Assembly (NCBI GenBank): GCA_016196035.1
Contig: JACPYM010000088.1
Location: forward strand, 124,001 to 188,000
DNA length: 64,000 bases
From: Acidobacteriota bacterium
GTDB lineage: Bacteria; Acidobacteriota; Blastocatellia; RBC074
Direction of reading: 5' to 3'
Positions 23,389 through 33,316 of this stretch are shown here, piece after piece. The notes below the pieces were generated by a model. That model was not told where the DNA came from, searched no databases, and worked only from the letters and a program-made list of their open reading frames with translations. Position 1 is the first letter of the stretch; each line of letters opens with the position of its first letter. The translations under genes and the position numbers were made by a program.

Positions 23389-26118
23389 TTACTCACAACG
23401 CAGGGCAATCAGTGGGTCTACTTTGGCCGCGCGGCGGGCGGGCAGGTAACACGCCAGCAAGGCTATTGCCAGTAACAGAACAGCAATCACGGCAAACGTC
23501 GCCGGATCGGTGGCGGGCACGCCGAAAAGGAACGCCGCCATCAGCCGCGCCATTGCCAGCGCCGCGCCGATGCCAATGACAATGCCCAGTAACGCCAGCC
23601 GGAAACCCTGTTTCAGCAGCAGTGTCAGCACCTGTGCTTGACTGGCTCCCAACGCCATGCGAAGGCCGATTTCATTGGTGCGTTGCGTGACCGTATACGC
23701 CATCACACCGTAAATGCCGAGTGCGACCAGCAGCAGGGTGAAGCCAGCAAAACACCCCAGCAGCAGCAAGTAAAAGCGCGGTTCGGCCAGCGCATCACTC
23801 ACCAGGTCTTCAACCAAATTGAGCCTGTAAATCGGCTGATCTTTGTCGAGCGCCCAGATGGCGCTTTTTACCGAGGCAAGCAAAGCGCTGGCCTCCGTCG
23901 TCGTGCGCATGATCAGCGTGCGTTGCGAAGACGGGCGCGTTCGCTGACTCCAGGGATAGTAGACCTCCATCTCGCTGAACCCATCGCCAGGTTTGCCTAG
24001 ATTGACGTCGCCAGCGACACCGACAATGGTCAGCCAAGGCCGCGCTTTGCCAAACCGTATGCGTTGGCCAACCGGATTCGCAATCCCCCAATAACGTCGC
24101 GCCATTTTTTCGTTGATGATCATTGCGGGCGGCGCCTTGACGCCGTCTTCGGCGCCAAACGCCCGGCCTTGTAAGAGCGGGATGCGCAGCGTCTGGAAGT
24201 AGGCAGGATCAATAAAGCTGAACGGCAAGACCATTTTTGCATCGGCGGGTTCGGGCGGATGGCCTTCGATTTCGATTTCGAGATTAAAGCTGATCCCGCC
24301 CCCTTGTGGCGGCACGCCCATCGCGGCGGTCGCCGATTCGACGCCTGGGACAGCAGCTAAATTGGATTTGAGGCGGCTGAAGAAATCTTCCTCTTGTTCC
24401 AAGGTCGAGTAACGTTGCGACGGCACCGAGAGCGTGGCGGCGATCAGGTTTTTCGGCTCATATCCCGGCGGCACGCCGCTCAAATGCAAGAAGCTGCGCA
24501 TCATCAAACCCGCGCCAATCAGCAGCACGAGCGACAAGGCGACCTCCAGCACGACCAAGGCGTGGCGCAAGCGGTTTTGCGCACGATCCGCCGTGGCCCT
24601 GCCCGTCACGCCTTTGAGCGCATTATGCAGATCAGGACGCGACGCCTTGAACGCCGGTAACAAGCCGCAGACAAAACCAGTCAGCACTGTGAGGGCCAGC
24701 GTAAAAAGCAACACACGTCGTTCGAGACTGATTTCATTGACGCTGAGAAAGGTCAGTTCATCCGGTACCAGTTTCGCCAGCGCAGCCACACCCCACCGCG
24801 CCAGCGCTACGCCCAACGTTCCAGCCAGCAACGCCAGCAACAAACTTTCGGTCAGTAATTGCCGCATCAAACGTCCGCGCCCCGCGCCCAGTGCCAGGCG
24901 AATCGCAATTTCGCCCTGCCGCTGCGCCGCGCGCGCCAGCAACAAATTCGCCGCATTCGCGCACGCCAGCAACAAGACAAAACCGACTGCGCCCAGTAAA
25001 ACCAGCAGCGCCCGGCGCGGCCCCGGATTGACGCGGATCGAACCCAACTGCGACAGCCTCGTCTGCCAACCGCTGGGGTCGGGCCGCTCTGTGTCGAGGC
25101 GTGTGCCCAGTGCCGTAAGCGCCGCTTGTACTGTGGGCAGCGCTGTGTCGCCGCGCAACCGGGCGACCGTATTGAAGCGGCGCGGGCGTTTCTGTTCATC
25201 CGCCGCGGTTAGCGGCAACGGCACCCAGAGTTCGAATTTGCCATAGGGGAATTTGAACTTCGGCGGCATTACCCCGACCACAGTGTAGCGTTGATCATTC
25301 AGTGTCAGCGTTTTGCCGAGCGCATCCGGGGTGCCGCCCAAATGGCTTTTCCAGAATCCGTCGCCAACCAGCACAACGCGGTCATTGCCCGGTTCGGCAT
25401 CCTGCGCATTAAACGGTCGCCCCAATTTGGGCTGGACGCCTAGCATCGCAAACAATCCCGACGTGACGGCAGGCGCATTCACCGACTCAGGCTCTTTGCC
25501 GCCCGTGAGCGTGTAAGTGCGCGGTTCGTGCGCCTCGACTTGGACGAAGAGATTCGTCTGACTACGCCATTCCTGAAACGCCTCCCAGCGCAACCCCGGA
25601 TAGGAAAATCCGCTCTTCGCTTCCAGTTGCTGGATTTCCACCAACCGGTCAGGTTCCGCGAATGGCAACGGACGAAACAGCACCGCATCTACCACGCTAT
25701 ACACTGCCGTGTTCAGGCCGATGCCCAACGCCAGCGTCACCACGACCACCAGCGTGAAGCCCGGATTTTTGCCCAAGGTACGCGCCGCATAGCGCAGGTC
25801 TTGCCACAGGTCTGCGATCATATTTCTCCTCCGATTGGTTCCCAGCACGATAGGTTCAGGGTTTACTTGCCGCGCGGCGCGCCGCAATTCGCGCGCCAAC
25901 GTGGCGCTGCCACGCAACTGCACGCGGGTCAGCCGTGCGGCTTCGGCTGGCGTTGCGCCACTGGCGAGTAACTCCGCGTAAATTTCGTCGAGGTGTTGCG
26001 CGAGTTCTTCAACAATGGAGGACTCGCGCGTCGGTTCCAGCGTCAAACGCGCCAGCCGCCGTCTGATCTCAGGCTTCCATTCCGGCAATTCTTGTTCAGG
26101 CGTTTTTTGGTCAGGCAT
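23389..26118 (-). CDS. ADOP-type MacB/FtsX permease
   Basis: A membrane protein of 909 residues with a duplicated MacB/FtsX layout: a soluble N-terminal region (about 1-95), TM1 ([20 protein letters not shown]), a periplasmic MacB_PCD domain, FtsX core 1 (about 370-490, with [32 protein letters not shown]), a second periplasmic domain, and FtsX core 2 ending [13 protein letters not shown]. This is the acidobacterial duplicated orphan permease class; no ATPase gene is nearby. The ATG at 26118 overlaps the end of padR by eight bases, so regulator and permease are coupled. A longer frame to 26154 is unlikely. The substrate is unknown. Confidence 0.9.
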
Positions 26119-26464
26119 TTTCCGGCCTTGTGATTTGGTTGATCGCCGCGACAAAGGATTCCCAGATGCTGCGTTGCGCCTTGAGCACCTGCTTGCCTTC
26201 TTTGGTCAGCTTGTAACAGCGCCGCCGTTTCTGGCCGGCCTTTTCGACCCACTGGCCGACGATCCAGCCGCGTTTTTCCAAGCGGTATAGCAAGGGGTAG
26301 AGCGAGGCGACGTTGAATTTCAGCATCCCGTCCGAACGCGCTTCGATCAGCTTGCTGATTTCGTAACCGTGGCGCGCGCGCGCTTCCAAGAGCGAGAGGA
26401 TGAGCAATTCGGCGCTGCCCTTCTTCAACTCGCGGTCGAGCATAGGTGAATTTTTATATGTCAT
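26111..26464 (-). CDS. PadR-family regulator paired with ADOP
   Basis: A winged-helix protein of 117 residues with the PadR core: [24 protein letters not shown], the recognition region [15 protein letters not shown] and a C-terminal helix for dimerisation. It matches the acidobacterial PadR group that sits before ADOP genes. It is probably a repressor of its own operon; a palindrome covers its start codon (26456-26474). Confidence 0.9.
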
Positions 26465-27022: not shown

Positions 27023-28990
27023 TTAACGCTCCTCCTTATGCACGCTGATGATATTCCCGTCCAGCGCGCTCATCAGCACGCGCGTCGTCGTGGCCAGCGT
27101 CCCATCGTCCGAAAGAATCGCGAGCACATAAGAAGCCTGATGCAGCGGGCCTTCGCGCACCAGCCTGGATTCCAACACCGTGCCGGGATATTGGCTGGTC
27201 GCGATCTGAATCGCTTGCTGCATCGTGAGCCGGGCTTCTTTCGCCAGTTCAGCTTGCCGCTTGGCCATCGCCTCGCGCTCGGCGCGCCGGTGCGCTATCA
27301 ACTCAGGGTCTTGTGCCTCCAACTCGGCGCGCCGCCGTAGCACGACTTCCGGATGAAGTGGTCCCAACTCTGCGCGTACCTGCTCCTCCTTCATTCTGGC
27401 TTCATGCAACGCCCGCTCGTCATTCTCTCTAGCCTGTCGTTGGGGGTCTTGCGTAAACGTAATAGCTTTCGGCCCATCTACGGTGTTGAATAGAAACAAT
27501 CTAGGTTCTTGCTGCGAGTCTGGTGAGTGGGTGACGGCCCAGCCTCGCTCTATCCGGCGATGCTCTTCAAGTTCGGCCTCGGCCTTCAGTTTCGCTTCGC
27601 GGACTTCGTCGCGCTCCTGCGCTTGTGGTTGCAGGAGCACAACCTCTCTGCCGCCCGACTGTCCTGGCGGTCGAATCACCGCGAGCACTGTACCCGCCGT
27701 TACTTTTTCGCCGGGCTGCACCAGCAGTCTTTCGATGACGCCACTGGTGCGGGCTTCGGCCCTGATCAAGCCGTTGCCGGTTTTCACCTCAGCGATAACT
27801 TCGCCGCGTTCGACTGTCTCGCCCGGACTCTTCAGCCAGGTGACTAACGTGCCAGTTTCGGCGGCGCCGCTTTGTGGTGGCGTAGCGCTGGCGCTCTGTG
27901 AATTGATGTTGATGCGCAGTGCGAAGGGCGCCGCGAGCGCGCACGGGACAACAAAAATGAGCGTGGTTGCGATTAACAACCACTGCCTGCGACGAACATC
28001 GAGCTGCGGTCTTTTTAGAATAGTCATAACACGTTCCTCCAAAATGTCGGCATCGGCGATGCCAACGGTCATGGTTGCAGTGGGGGTTGCAGTTGGGGTT
28101 GCAGTGGGGCGGCCCACCGTGACTGCCGCACCGGCCAGGCGGACAAGCGAACGGGCATAGACGGCGGCGTCCAACAAACGTTCGGTAACCAATTCGTCAC
28201 AGCCCAGTTCCCGCGTCTCTCTGATCCGGCGTCGCACCAGCGCCGTGGCTGGATGAAACGCCAGCGGCCAAGCGATGAATTCGTAAAGCAGGTTGCACAG
28301 ATAATCGCGCCGCCACACGTGCACCAGTTCGTGCCCGATGGCTGAAGTCAGCAGGTCGCGATCCGCTTCGTGCAACAACTGCTCCGGCAAAATGACCAGC
28401 GGGTTGCGGCTGCCCACGGTGACCGGCACTGTGAGCGCAGCCGAGCACAAAAACTGCACCCGTTGCACGCCCAACGCCGTTTGACACATGCGCACGGCAG
28501 TTCGAATGTGTTCAGGCAGGTCAACCGCATAAGCGCTGCGTATCAGCCCGCGTGTCTTGCTCCAGGCCAGCCATAACTTGCGGCCTCGATAGCAGAGCAA
28601 CAGCAAATAGAGACCGGCGATGACTGCGGCGGCGTTCTCACTGAGCGAAAGAAGATGATTTGCGGCCTGCTTTGGCGTGGGCGGCAAGACCGGCAGCGGC
28701 GCGGACGCGGCCTTTATGCCGAATTGCGGCAAGGCTGCGGCATCAATACTGACGGGTAGCGTTATGAGCAGTGACGGCTCAGAAAAGAAAGCGCGGCTCA
28801 AAAGGAATGCGCCTGACACTGCCGGCAAGCCAAACGAAATGACCAGCGCCGCCACCCAAACCACGTGGCGATAACGCGCCGAGGTCGCCCGCAACAGGCG
28901 ATCACACAACGCGGCGAGCGCCGCAATCAGCACAAGCTGCCAGCCCGCATTCAGCAAAAAGGTCAACAACAGTTGGCTACTTGTTCTCAT
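27023..28990 (-). CDS. BlaR1-like M56 peptidase with lipoyl-like and PepSY-like domains
   Basis: A protein of 655 residues. Membrane helices lie near residues 12-30, 38-58 and 110-130. An M56 metalloprotease domain carries HELVH (about 220) and the downstream Glu in RELGCDELV (about 263). A helix lies near 335-350. Residues about 377-437 have a biotinyl/lipoyl-like fold (LVTWLKSPGETVERGEVIAEV ... VQPGEKVTAGTVLAVI) in which the usual modified-Lys motif reads KTGNG. A coiled-coil-rich stretch follows, and the last 60 residues resemble PepSY. M56 proteins sense a signal and cleave BlaI-type repressors. The blaI gene overlaps its start by 14 bases. The added domains replace the penicillin-sensing domain of BlaR1, so the signal is probably not a beta-lactam. 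Confidence 0.8.
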   Translation of the reverse strand: MRTSSQLLLTFLLNAGWQLVLIAALAALCDRLLRATSARYRHVVWVAALVISFGLPAVSGAFLLSRAFFSEPSLLITLPVSIDAAALPQFGIKAASAPLPVLPPTPKQAANHLLSLSENAAAVIAGLYLLLLCYRGRKLWLAWSKTRGLIRSAYAVDLPEHIRTAVRMCQTALGVQRVQFLCSAALTVPVTVGSRNPLVILPEQLLHEADRDLLTSAIGHELVHVWRRDYLCNLLYEFIAWPLAFHPATALVRRRIRETRELGCDELVTERLLDAAVYARSLVRLAGAAVTVGRPTATPTATPTATMTVGIADADILEERVMTILKRPQLDVRRRQWLLIATTLIFVVPCALAAPFALRININSQSASATPPQSGAAETGTLVTWLKSPGETVERGEVIAEVKTGNGLIRAEARTSGVIERLLVQPGEKVTAGTVLAVIRPPGQSGGREVVLLQPQAQERDEVREAKLKAEAELEEHRRIERGWAVTHSPDSQQEPRLFLFNTVDGPKAITFTQDPQRQARENDERALHEARMKEEQVRAELGPLHPEVVLRRRAELEAQDPELIAHRRAEREAMAKRQAELAKEARLTMQQAIQIATSQYPGTVLESRLVREGPLHQASYVLAILSDDGTLATTTRVLMSALDGNIISVHKEER

Positions 28991-29369
28991 CGCCTGCCTC
29001 CTCGGCCTCTTGCAAAAGCTGATTTAACTTAGCCATTTTGGCGGCATCGAGATGTTTGGTTTCCACCAGGCTCATCACCAGACTTTCCACCGAACCGCCG
29101 AACAAATGCTCGACCAAATCGCTGACCGCGTGCCGCACGACCTGGCTGCGACTGACGGCGGGCCGGTAAAAATAGGCCCGTTCTTTCAGCGTGCGTTTGA
29201 CCTTCCCCTTGCGGTGCAGAATGTTGAGCATCGTCTGCACCGTGGTGTAGGCCAACTCGCGCGCGAGTTGCTGCTGTACGGTCTGGACGTTGGCGGGGCC
29301 GGTGTCCCACAGAACATGCATGATTTCGAGTTCGAGCGGGGTTAAGCGCTCAGGCTTACTGCGATTCAT
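28977..29369 (-). CDS. blaI: BlaI/MecI/CopY-family repressor
   Basis: A winged-helix protein of 130 residues: LTPLELEIMHVLWDTGPANVQTVQQQL at the start, the recognition segment TTVQTMLNILHRKGKVKR, and a dimerising tail with RSQVVRHAVSDLVEHLFGG. It should repress its own operon until cleaved by the downstream M56 protease. AGGAGG lies just before the ATG and is part of a palindrome (29377-29394). A possible BlaR1 cleavage site is not identifiable by eye. Confidence 0.9.
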   Translation of the reverse strand: MNRSKPERLTPLELEIMHVLWDTGPANVQTVQQQLARELAYTTVQTMLNILHRKGKVKRTLKERAYFYRPAVSRSQVVRHAVSDLVEHLFGGSVESLVMSLVETKHLDAAKMAKLNQLLQEAEEAGDENK

Positions 29370-29376
29370 TCGCCAC

Positions 29377-29394
29377 CTCCTAAGTTTTTAGGAG
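29377..29394. promoter_or_regulatory. BlaI operator overlapping the ribosome site
   Basis: CTCCTAA and TTAGGAG form a perfect 7-bp inverted repeat around GTTT. On the - strand one arm is the blaI Shine-Dalgarno sequence. A second, shorter palindrome with the same half-site (CTAAA-AC-TTTAG followed by GAG) lies at 29424-29435. The two are centred about 44 bases apart, roughly four helical turns. Confidence 0.65.
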
Positions 29395-29423
29395 TATATA
29401 ACCCCAAGCGTGACCGATGTCAA

Positions 29424-29435
29424 CTAAAACTTTAG
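29424..29435. promoter_or_regulatory. Second BlaI half-site palindrome
   Basis: CTAAA-AC-TTTAG, continued by GAG on the right, repeats the half-site of the 29377-29394 operator. Its placement upstream suggests it lies over the promoter of blaI. Confidence 0.45.
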
Positions 29436-29910
29436 GAGCCGCGCGTAACGTCCCAGTGTGACTGGTCTCCAAGTCAGATCGGCCAGTGGCTCGGCTCGTT
29501 CTCATGCTGAGGCTCCATGTGCAGGCTGCTCTGAATCACCTCAACACGCTCACAACTGCCCCGTCTTGGTTGAACACTTACCTGTACTGACTGCCGATTC
29601 CTGATTCCCGATTCCTGACAGATTGAAAATCAGCCGGTCTTTTCAGTTTAGTAGGAATCAGGAATCAGGAATCAGCGGTCAGTCAAAGGTCTTTGGCAGA
29701 TGTTTTAAGGACTTTGCAAAAGCCCTGTTGCTCCGCTCGCCCAGGCAAGATCGAGCTTGACCGTAGCTGCACGTGGCTCTACCATCCGTCAACTGCTACG
29801 TATACGTAACAGCGAAAATGCGGTCACGGCAAACCGGGAATTTCCGGTGTAGTGGTAGGGCGTGGCTGTTGACGGTGGCACTCAAATAGCGAAGCAAAGG
29901 AGGAATTGCG
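29436..29910. other. Gene-free stretch between divergent blaI and marR
   Basis: About 475 bases with no credible gene. The middle is the heptamer hairpin element copy II (29596-29727). The right part must hold the marR promoter; CTACGTATACGTAAC near 29798-29812 contains a small palindrome (TACGTATACGTA) that could be an operator, with weak support. Confidence 0.5.
29596..29727. repeat. Heptamer hairpin element, copy II (intact)
   Basis: GATTCCT-type heptamers (29596-29618), then TTGAAAATCAGCCGGTCTTTTCA, inverted AATCAGG heptamers (29653-29681) and the tail GTCTTTGGCAG...GCAAAAGCCCTG (29689-29727). The same order and the same tail occur at 5971-6309, where the element is interrupted. Confidence 0.75.
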
Positions 29911-30444
29911 ATGGGGTTTCGCACTGGTCTGGGAATGGGGCTGCGTGGGGCTTATTTCTCGATGCACCGTTCCTTTCAGGCATTTTACGCGCGACACGGC
30001 GCGACGGCGGATCAGTTCGTGGTGCTTTCGATGCTGGCGGAAGAGGACGGCATCACCCAACAAGAGTTGGCCCGCCGCGTTTTCTCCGATCCGAATACGA
30101 TCACCGCGATGCTGACGCTGCTGGAAAAGCGCGGGCTGGCAAAACGGGAAGATCACGAGGCAGATGGGCGGGCGTGGCTTGTATACCTGACGCCGAAAGG
30201 CCGCCAGTTTCAGCGCACGCTGCATGAGAGCGCCGAACACTTGCACACGCGCTTGCGTGAGGCAGTGCCGCCGGAGCAATTGGAAATGGTTTTGAATGTC
30301 TTGCGAAAAATTGCCGAAGCAATGCCCTCGCCGGAGCGCAAGAGCCGGAAGGCGCAACCGCAAAAAGCGCGCAAGCTCAGCAAACGTATTGCTGGCGCCA
30401 AAGCGGCGCAGAAAAACAAAAAAGCCACACGCAATCATTCGTGA
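29911..30444 (+). CDS. MarR-family regulator with basic tail
   Basis: A protein of 177 residues. The winged helix-turn-helix is visible: [27 protein letters not shown], then [21 protein letters not shown] and the wing [13 protein letters not shown]. The last 40 residues are unusually basic (many Lys/Arg) and may add DNA affinity. AAAGGAGG precedes the ATG. The secreted protein gene follows after 22 bases, so MarR probably controls it. Confidence 0.85.
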
Positions 30445-30466
30445 TGCTTTGATTGGAGGAGTAAAG

Positions 30467-33316
30467 ATGAAACCGCTTGGTTTCCTTTTCAGCCTGCTTA
30501 TGGCGGGCACGCTGGCCTGCTTGCTCTGTGACAGAGTCGCCCACGGCGTCGCGGCTGCGCCGTTCACGTTGGACGATCCGGCCAGCCCCATCAGCGTCGC
30601 CTTCGACGGCAGCAGCGGGCGCATGCGCGTGACGGTCAAGGCGACGGGAACGATTTGGAGCAATCCTGACTCCGGCGGCGGCGATACGGTGACGGTCTCC
30701 AACGTCACACAGCCGGATGCGCGGCATCTGACGGCCAGCGTCCGCACGAACCGCGGCTATGACCTGAGCCTGCGCCTGGAACTGGTGCCGGCCACGGGCG
30801 ATTTGGTGACCACGCTCAGCGGCAATCCGAACACGAACATTGCCGGACGGGTTCAATACCCTTGGGCCTTCTTCCCTGCCGACGGTTCCGGGTTTGCGGT
30901 GCTACCGATCTTCAGCGGTTATGTCGTGCCGACCACTGACACGAGTTGGCGCGTACCGTCTGCGCATAGTCGGCTGGAATGGTTTGGCGGCACTGATGGC
31001 AACGACACAGAAAGCTGGCTCTGCATTCTCGACCCGGCGCAAGATGTTTTTCTGAACGCACAAACGGGCAGCATCGGCGGCAATACGCGGTTGGGCGGCG
31101 TGCCGCAATGGGCAGGCTCTAACGCCAACGCTGCAAAAACTTCCGACCTGCTCTCCTATGACCGTAGCGCGACGTTCCGTTTCTACACGACCGGCGGGTA
31201 TGTGGCCTTGGCCAAACGCTTCCGCCAATACGCGCAGGGCAAGGGCTGGCTGAAAACGCTGGCACAGAAGAAAGCCGAAAACAGTCAGGTCGAACAACTC
31301 ATCGGCGCGCCCGTCATTTATCTGTGGGGCGATGGCCGCAGCACGGCGATGCTCGATGCCTTGCGCACGGCAGGGGTGCGCAAAGCCCTAATCCAGACCT
31401 CAATCAATCACGTAGATCAAAACAACGGTTTCCCGAACCAGCAATTCGCCGATGGCACGGGCTGGTCGAACGAAGTGCGCAATCACGGCTACGTGCCGGG
31501 CATTTACGATATTTACGCCAGCTATAACAGCCTGCAACGCACACCGCCTTACAACGGGTTCAGTTATCTCTGGCCGACGACGGCGAATCCGCAATGGTAT
31601 TACGTGCGCGCGGACGGCACGGCAAATGGCACGCGCGTCGCAGCGGCGCGGGCGAAAGATTTTGCGCGCGACACGCGACTGCCGGCGCACGTCAGCCGTT
31701 TCGGGCTGGATGCGTTCTTCTTTGATGTAGTCTGTGCCGAAGAGCCGGGCGAGGATTACGACACGGCGAACGGTCATTTCGCGACGCGCGAGCAGGACAT
31801 CTCCAATCGCGCCGCGTTGCTCAACGCTGCCTACAACAATCCCAACATCGCCAAGCGCTTGCTCGTGGGCACCGAACAAGTCAAATCGTGGGCGATTCCC
31901 TACCTGCATTGGGCCGAGGGCGCGTTCTGGCTGGGCAGCGTCACCGCGAGTCCGGCGCAGGGGAGCTTCAACAACAACGCCTATCCTTCTATCGCCTCAG
32001 ACGTAATTGACCCGAAGAATTCTTCCGCGACCAATCAACTGCCGCTGCTGCTGACGGATGGCTATCAGGTTCCGCTGTGGGACTTGGTCTATCACGAATG
32101 TATGCTGGCCACATCGCACTGGCATCGCGCGCAAAACAAATATCTTTACGTCTGGGATCACGCCGATCTGTCGGCGCTGATTCGCGGACAAGCCCCCTTG
32201 CTGCATCTGGTTTACGACGGTGCGGCGGGCAGCATTGGCCGCGCGATTCAAGGCGCGACTGATGCGCGCACGGGGAAGTTCTGGGACACGCGCTGGACGA
32301 ACGCCAATGTTCAGGCGCGCGTGCAGCAAACGTACAACACGGTTTGCGCCTGGCACGAGCAGGTCGCCATGCTCGAAATGATCGCCCACAAACGGCTGAC
32401 CGCTGATCGTTCGGTACAGATGTCCGAATTCAGCGCCGATGGCGGACAGTCGGGCAAAGGCATCGTGGTCAACTTCGGCACCTATGACGGAGCCTACGGA
32501 ATGATCGGCGCGACCTGGAACGGCACGCTACGCGGGCAGGCGCTCGCGGTTCCGGTCAACAGCTTTCGGACATACAGTTGGGCCGCCACCATGCCGCGCT
32601 CGCAAGTCAGCGTTTCAGCGGCTAGCTACAGTAGCGCGGCGCTCGCGCCCGAATCCATCGCGGTGGCTTTCGGCTCTGATTTGGCGACGGCCACGCAAAC
32701 GGCAACGCTCCCCTTGCCTACCAAATTGGCAGAAACGACTGTGACGGTGCGCGATAGTGCGGGCGTCGAAAGACTCGCGCCGCTTTTCTTTGTTTCTCCC
32801 ACGCAGGTCAATTATCTGATTCCCGCGGCGACGGCGGCGGGCACGGCGACGATCACGACGACCAGCGGCAACGGCGTAGTCTCTGCCAACCATACGCAAA
32901 TCGCCGCCGTCGCGCCGGGCCTGTTTACCGCCAATGCCAGCGGACAAGGCGTGCCCGCCGCCAGTGTGTTGCGCGTCAAGGCCGACGGCTCGCAGCAATA
33001 CGAACCGGTCGCCCAATTCGACCCGGCGCAAAACAAATTCGTGGCCGCGCCAATCGAACTGGGGCCGGAAAACGAGCAGGTCTTCTTGCTGCTGTTCGGC
33101 ACAGGACTGCGCTACCGCAGCACTCTCAGCAACGTGCAGGTGCAAGTTGGCGGCCAGGATATGCAAGTGACGTTTGCGGGCGCGCAAGGCAGCTTCGGTG
33201 GACTCGATCAAGTCAACGTGCGGCTGTCGCGTAATTTGCTCGGACGTGGTGAAGTCGAAGTGAGGCTCACGGCAGACGGGCAGACAACGAATACTGTCAA
33301 ACTCAACATACGCTGA
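30467..33316 (+). CDS. Secreted TIM-barrel-like glycosidase candidate with Soli_cterm-type domain
   Basis: A protein of 949 residues with a signal peptide (about 1-30). Residues 31-250 are beta-rich, and about 250-650 look like a glycoside hydrolase-type barrel: [33 protein letters not shown] with an acidic cluster that could be catalytic, and [11 protein letters not shown]. The arrangement recalls DUF5696/GH101-related proteins, but I cannot assign a GH family. Residues about 705-949 form the acidobacterial C-terminal domain ([21 protein letters not shown] ... [11 protein letters not shown] ... [10 protein letters not shown]). GGAGG lies before the ATG at 30467. The frame is open upstream to 30296 but that part overlaps marR. 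Substrate unknown. Confidence 0.7.

Follow-up and report, generated by a model that had tools for sequence, protein, structure and literature searches.

A BlaI-M56 Gene Pair of Blastocatellia with E2-Type Lipoyl and PepSY Domains in Place of a Penicillin-Binding Sensor

A Repressor-Protease Pair and Its Described Counterparts

In the closest described systems, BlaI-BlaR1 and MecI-MecR1 of Staphylococcus and Bacillus, a Penicillinase_R repressor is encoded beside an M56 membrane protease with an HExxH motif and an extracytoplasmic C-terminal part, and dyad operators lie at the pair's own promoter. BlaR1 is N-out/C-out with its protease facing the cytosol, and cleaves BlaI directly (PMC9834060). 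Here we describe a pair from an Acidobacteriota bacterium of the class Blastocatellia, located in a stretch of 64,000 nucleotides (hereafter the window), which resembles these systems in its repressor, its protease, its operator dyads and its C-terminal part, the dyads and the extracytoplasmic position being predicted. Unlike them, it carries a lipoyl and a PepSY domain and lacks a penicillin-binding sensor; its operator sequence is different, and no beta-lactamase or PBP2a target was found for it. Our literature search, which mostly covered work outside subscription journals, returned no paper on a combination of BlaR1, M56 and lipoyl domain.

The two genes are adjacent and co-oriented, the 3' end of blaI overlapping the start of the M56 gene by 14 bp (table 1). 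With overlapping frames and both Pfam matches above their cut-offs, the pair proposed in an earlier note on this DNA, made from the letters alone, is borne out. So are the HELVH motif and the membrane helices that it described: the protein has four hydrophobic segments, the last strong one at residues 338-356, and the top Foldseek match of its full-length AF2 model, confident over the membrane-protease core and the PepSY domain, is BlaR1 of S. aureus (8exs, E 1.1e-6). After the last membrane helix follow, in order, an E2-type lipoyl domain, a charged helical linker and the PepSY domain, while Pfam and NCBIfam profile searches detect no penicillin-binding (class D-like) domain. The replacement of that sensor by lipoyl-like and PepSY-like domains, also claimed earlier, thus holds, given a Biotin_lipoyl match above cut-off and a PepSY domain recognized by its fold and, in relatives, by its profile. 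Homology with BlaR1 makes a sensor role the best reading of the M56 protein, and the state of the protease or of the envelope may be what is sensed.

A 12-bp tandem repeat (3.1 copies, window 28073-28109) encodes the TPTATPTATPTA stretch of the M56 protein. This stretch is about 8 residues longer than in the relatives L006 and L007, and by position may fall in the loop that matches the autocleavage loop of BlaR1.

Table 1. Features of the locus, with positions in the window
Feature	Position	Strand	Basis
M56 sensor-protease gene, 655 aa	27023..28990	-	One uninterrupted ORF; Peptidase_M56 E 4.9e-18, above curated cut-off
Predicted PepSY domain, residues 588-650	27041..27229	-	PepSY E 0.0017, below curated cut-off; AF2 pLDDT 82-92 over most
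Charged, helix-rich linker, residues 445-586	27233..27658	-	AF2 secondary structure; least conserved segment
E2-type lipoyl domain, residues 375-439, predicted periplasmic	27674..27868	-	Biotin_lipoyl E 8.6e-10, above cut-off; E2 profiles; AF2; Foldseek
Asn406, codon AAC, at the lipoyl-lysine position	27773..27775	-	Alignment with E2 lipoyl domains
HELVH zinc-binding motif, residues 220-224	28319..28333	-	Translation
blaI, 130-aa Penicillinase_R/BlaI-type repressor	28977..29369	-	Pfam Penicillinase_R E 5.2e-32
Predicted operator 2, CTCCTAAGTTTTTAGGAG, perfect arms, over the blaI Shine-Dalgarno	29377..29394	.	Sequence pattern
Putative -10 element TATATA, 17-bp spacer to -35	29395..29400	-	Sequence inspection
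Putative -35 element TTGACA	29418..29423	-	Sequence inspection; conserved in relatives
Predicted operator 1, CTCCTAAAGTTTTAG, directly upstream of -35	29424..29438	-	Sequence pattern; relatives

An E2-Type Lipoyl Domain and a PepSY Domain after the Last Helix

The lipoyl domain shares sequence and fold with those of the E2 subunits of 2-oxoacid dehydrogenases. In NCBIfam, E2 subunits match it best, acetoin dehydrogenase E2 first; its sequence matches in the PDB are mostly E2 lipoyl domains, and an E2-like protein encoded in a genome of the same family has a lipoyl domain that matches it at 59% identity over 70 aa. The resemblance to HlyD and other membrane fusion proteins put forward earlier does not carry over to origin: the HlyD_3 and HlyD_D23 profiles give weak matches that stay under the cut-off, those of E2 fit better, and the domain is of E2 type rather than specifically HlyD-like. 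Structure prediction, which the earlier note had suggested as a check, gives a lipoyl core fold. Modelled as a separate segment, the core reaches an AF2 pLDDT of about 90 or more, the first strand is not predicted, and Foldseek retrieves lipoyl domains such as 3crk and 1y8n (1.8 A); the input alignment included E2 sequences, so that the fold is supported and not independently proven. In the full-length model, built with a mixed alignment, the same part stays below pLDDT 50.

At the modification turn, most E2 rows of the alignment read V-D/E-T-D-K and the window protein V-K-T-G-N-G. The lysine of KTGNG, which had been singled out as the possible modification site, is excluded by this alignment: K403 corresponds to the acidic residue three positions before the E2 lipoyl-lysine, and the lipoyl-lysine position itself is held by Asn406. 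The AAC codon is one substitution away from a lysine codon, and a sequencing error at that base is possible, but the adjacent Asp-to-Gly change is common to this protein and both relatives. Both relatives keep the lysine (E-T-G-K-G in L006, D-A-G-K-G in L007), the canonical TDK becoming TGK and AGK, respectively, and TGN in the window protein, the only one of the three to show the loss. The first strand, hydrophobic in L006 (EFVMP), reads SASATP in the window protein.

Since it follows the last strong hydrophobic stretch, the lipoyl domain is predicted to be extracytoplasmic, by analogy with BlaR1 topology. Unlike E2 lipoyl domains, it is not part of an enzyme, has Asn for the lipoyl-lysine and is predicted to be periplasmic. 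Lipoylation enzymes are cytoplasmic, so that the window protein is unlikely to be lipoylated and modification of L006 and L007 is doubtful too. That the domain serves as a lipoylated redox or lipoate sensor is accordingly very improbable: the lysine of the two relatives speaks for it, whereas the Asn of the window protein, the Gly before the lysine position in all three proteins and a predicted location away from the modifying enzymes all speak against it. Given the lost lysine and the degraded first strand, the lipoyl fold of the window protein is most likely a cofactor-free binding or spacer module.

The PepSY domain is modelled confidently as one helix and four strands, the alpha/beta fold of PepSY proteins. 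Against a Pfam cut-off of 24, it scores 19.1 in the window protein, 24.4 in L007, 25.6 in L036 and 31.6 in L031, the latter two being sister M56 proteins. Foldseek matches it weakly to the lipoprotein CD1622 (4exr) at E 0.16, with 1.9 A over 69 columns, and to the C-terminal domain of YpeB (5boi) at E 0.29. A periplasmic PepSY protein that acts on a membrane sensor is known from DbfQ-DbfS of Vibrio cholerae (PMC12714742), and a similar association of PepSY with a membrane sensor is predicted here; DbfQ, however, is a small protein of its own whose target is a histidine kinase, unlike the fusion to a protease seen in the window.

Relatives and the Exchange of the C-Terminal End

A search for the same architecture elsewhere, also suggested in the earlier note, recovered two full-length lipoyl-type relatives (L006, 639 aa; L007, 629 aa) from two other Blastocatellia genomes of another family, each with M56, lipoyl, charged linker and PepSY as in the window. 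The objection that the gene could be a misassembled join of two genes fails on this result. Such a join, or a frameshift, had only the odd domain combination in its favor, and with the architecture present in two independent assemblies and the frame uninterrupted, its probability is negligible. The full-length profile was matched only by the window, G038 and G042 among 162 Blastocatellia genomes, and an even draw of 396 genomes across the phylum yielded no further full-length match. By eye, the genes flanking the window pair, L006 and L007 are all mutually unrelated; no conserved neighbor or downstream target gene was seen, the flanks of L058 and L059 differing from each other and from the window. 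Within the window, one side (23389-26464, minus strand) holds a PadR-like regulator and, after it, a long MacB/FtsX-like permease, a pairing that resembles the duplicated permeases common in Acidobacteriota; on the other side (29911-33316, plus strand), a MarR-like regulator overlaps a secreted-looking frame of about 1000 aa, whose C-terminal region is like those frequent on secreted proteins of Acidobacteriota (all by eye).

The wider M56 clade, defined by a class-wide search at E 1e-40, occurs in 21 of the 162 Blastocatellia genomes. The Acidobacteriota proteins L031, L033, L034, L036 and L041 share with the window protein the M56 clade, a BlaI partner and the promoter-operator layout, but TonB_C, PepSY-only or HEAT C-termini replace the lipoyl domain. 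According to Pfam, the last helix is followed by TonB_C and PepSY in L031, L033 and L036, by PepSY with no other domain in L034 (and weakly in L037), by HEAT repeats in L041 and by no recognized domain in L039 and L044; the C-termini of L035, L038, L040 and several HEAT-like proteins were judged by eye. In a tree built from the M56 core, proteins with PepSY fall into one group (100/99), and the three lipoyl proteins come together with moderate support (86/91); sister pairs carry TonB_C with PepSY or PepSY alone, and more distant pairs HEAT repeats or unassigned sequence. The simplest reading is that a PepSY-type M56 protein gained an E2 lipoyl domain by a single insertion, and the family is best read as a cassette with a swappable periplasmic end, in which protease, repressor and promoter are constant.

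The window's own genome holds further M56 paralogues, described here by eye. L003 (61-2694, minus strand) and L004 (minus strand) have glycine-rich C-terminal repeats of GIGQGIG or GGVADG type, L003 also with repeats of about 25-40 residues (GVTPEYIAALKQAGFENL...) and L004 with a TonB_C-like stretch at its end; L002 (G000:C31, 826-3534, plus strand) has HEAT-like repeats.

Segment by segment, the window protein is 52-53% identical to L006 and L007 over M56, 40-47% over the lipoyl domain, 28-37% over the linker and 58-65% over PepSY; within the C-terminal part, conservation is thus highest in PepSY and lowest in the linker. The lipoyl domain could on these figures be a decaying, functionless passenger of a protein that works through PepSY alone, as its PepSY-only sisters would: the lysine is lost, the first strand is degraded, and identity falls below that of both M56 and PepSY. 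We consider this unlikely, as frame and core fold are maintained in three divergent proteins.

Promoter, Operators and Probable Output

Upstream of blaI, two predicted BlaI-type operator dyads (CTMCTAANNNNTTAG) are found at one promoter; operator 2 (CTCCTAAAAACTTAGGAG) directly follows the putative -10 and overlaps the Shine-Dalgarno. Class and phylum searches recovered this operator-promoter layout upstream of blaI in 25 related loci (a list of 52 rows, several sites being repeated under different locus ids); the blaI loci L049-L051, of the HEAT group, fall outside it. A variant dyad, CTACTAATTTTTTAATTG, near the blaI start of L002 (C31:5041-5058) suggests a related but distinct operator. Genome G157 carries operator plus -35 a second time, 344 bp upstream of the module promoter (L127 from 1501; G157:C451:9552-9916), with no clear gene between the two copies.

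The operator seems private to the module. In the 9.6-Mb genome, the strict form CTCCTAANNNNTTAG has three hits, which lie no more than 62 bp apart at the locus and include both strands of operator 2 (reversed control, 7). A longer pattern with two mismatches gave 44 sites genome-wide versus 174 in the control, and no further regulon stands out; these searches used consensus patterns, which would miss weaker operators. Of 11 further genomes with the module, one has no operator site; in the others, most sites fall at the module or at a second BlaI-M56 pair, and the small remainder are single. Six single sites were inspected, including one from the window's own genome, and each adjoins unrelated genes. 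Across the 162 Blastocatellia genomes, operator plus -35 (CTMCTAANNNNTTAGTTGACA) occurs 18 times, each upstream of a module, in 17 of the 21 genomes with the M56 clade and in none of the other 141 (reversed control, zero). Since the operator turned up at no other place, the protease itself appears to be the regulated output, and its level is probably what the system sets.

We favor, with some confidence, a sensor-protease cassette of two genes that regulates itself in the manner of BlaI/BlaR1 and whose lipoyl fold would serve for binding or spacing without a cofactor. Judging from the placement and conservation of the sites and from BlaR1, BlaI would bind the two operators at its own promoter and shut off blaI-M56. 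If BlaR1 topology applies, the zinc-protease domain would be cytoplasmic, and the lipoyl domain, helical linker and PepSY periplasmic; again as in BlaR1, a periplasmic event perceived by the PepSY/lipoyl region would change the protease so that it cleaves BlaI and thereby induces its own operon. A PepSY-type M56 protein would have acquired its lipoyl domain from an E2 enzyme. More tentatively, PepSY may be the constant sensing or restraining element, for which DbfQ offers a precedent, and the lipoyl fold a binding or spacer element free of cofactor; that PepSY is the best-conserved C-terminal segment and is present in the nearest sisters argues for the cassette.

Two other accounts deserve mention. 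In one, which we regard as possible but less likely than not, BlaI would regulate only its own M56 protease, which would be effector as well as sensor, a closed proteolytic homeostat into which lipoyl, TonB_C and HEAT parts are plugged. In the other, the periplasmic part would be no sensor at all: M56 would itself act as effector, processing proteins or serving quality control in the membrane, with BlaI keeping its level constant and the C-terminal domains bringing in substrates or partners. In line with it, neither the genome nor its relatives showed a second operator target, conserved neighbor genes are absent, and the C-terminal part is freely exchanged, including for interaction modules such as TonB_C and HEAT; yet the closest characterized relatives sense through their C-terminal domain (PMC9834060), and we think it improbable.

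If the autoregulated sensor-protease cassette is the right reading, a sensor protease has taken over the cofactor-carrying domain of an enzyme and uses it outside the cytoplasm without the cofactor, in a family whose sensor end is swapped against a fixed set of protease, repressor and promoter. A testable prediction follows from the private operator: where no beta-lactamase is present, a BlaI-M56 system may control nothing but its own protease.
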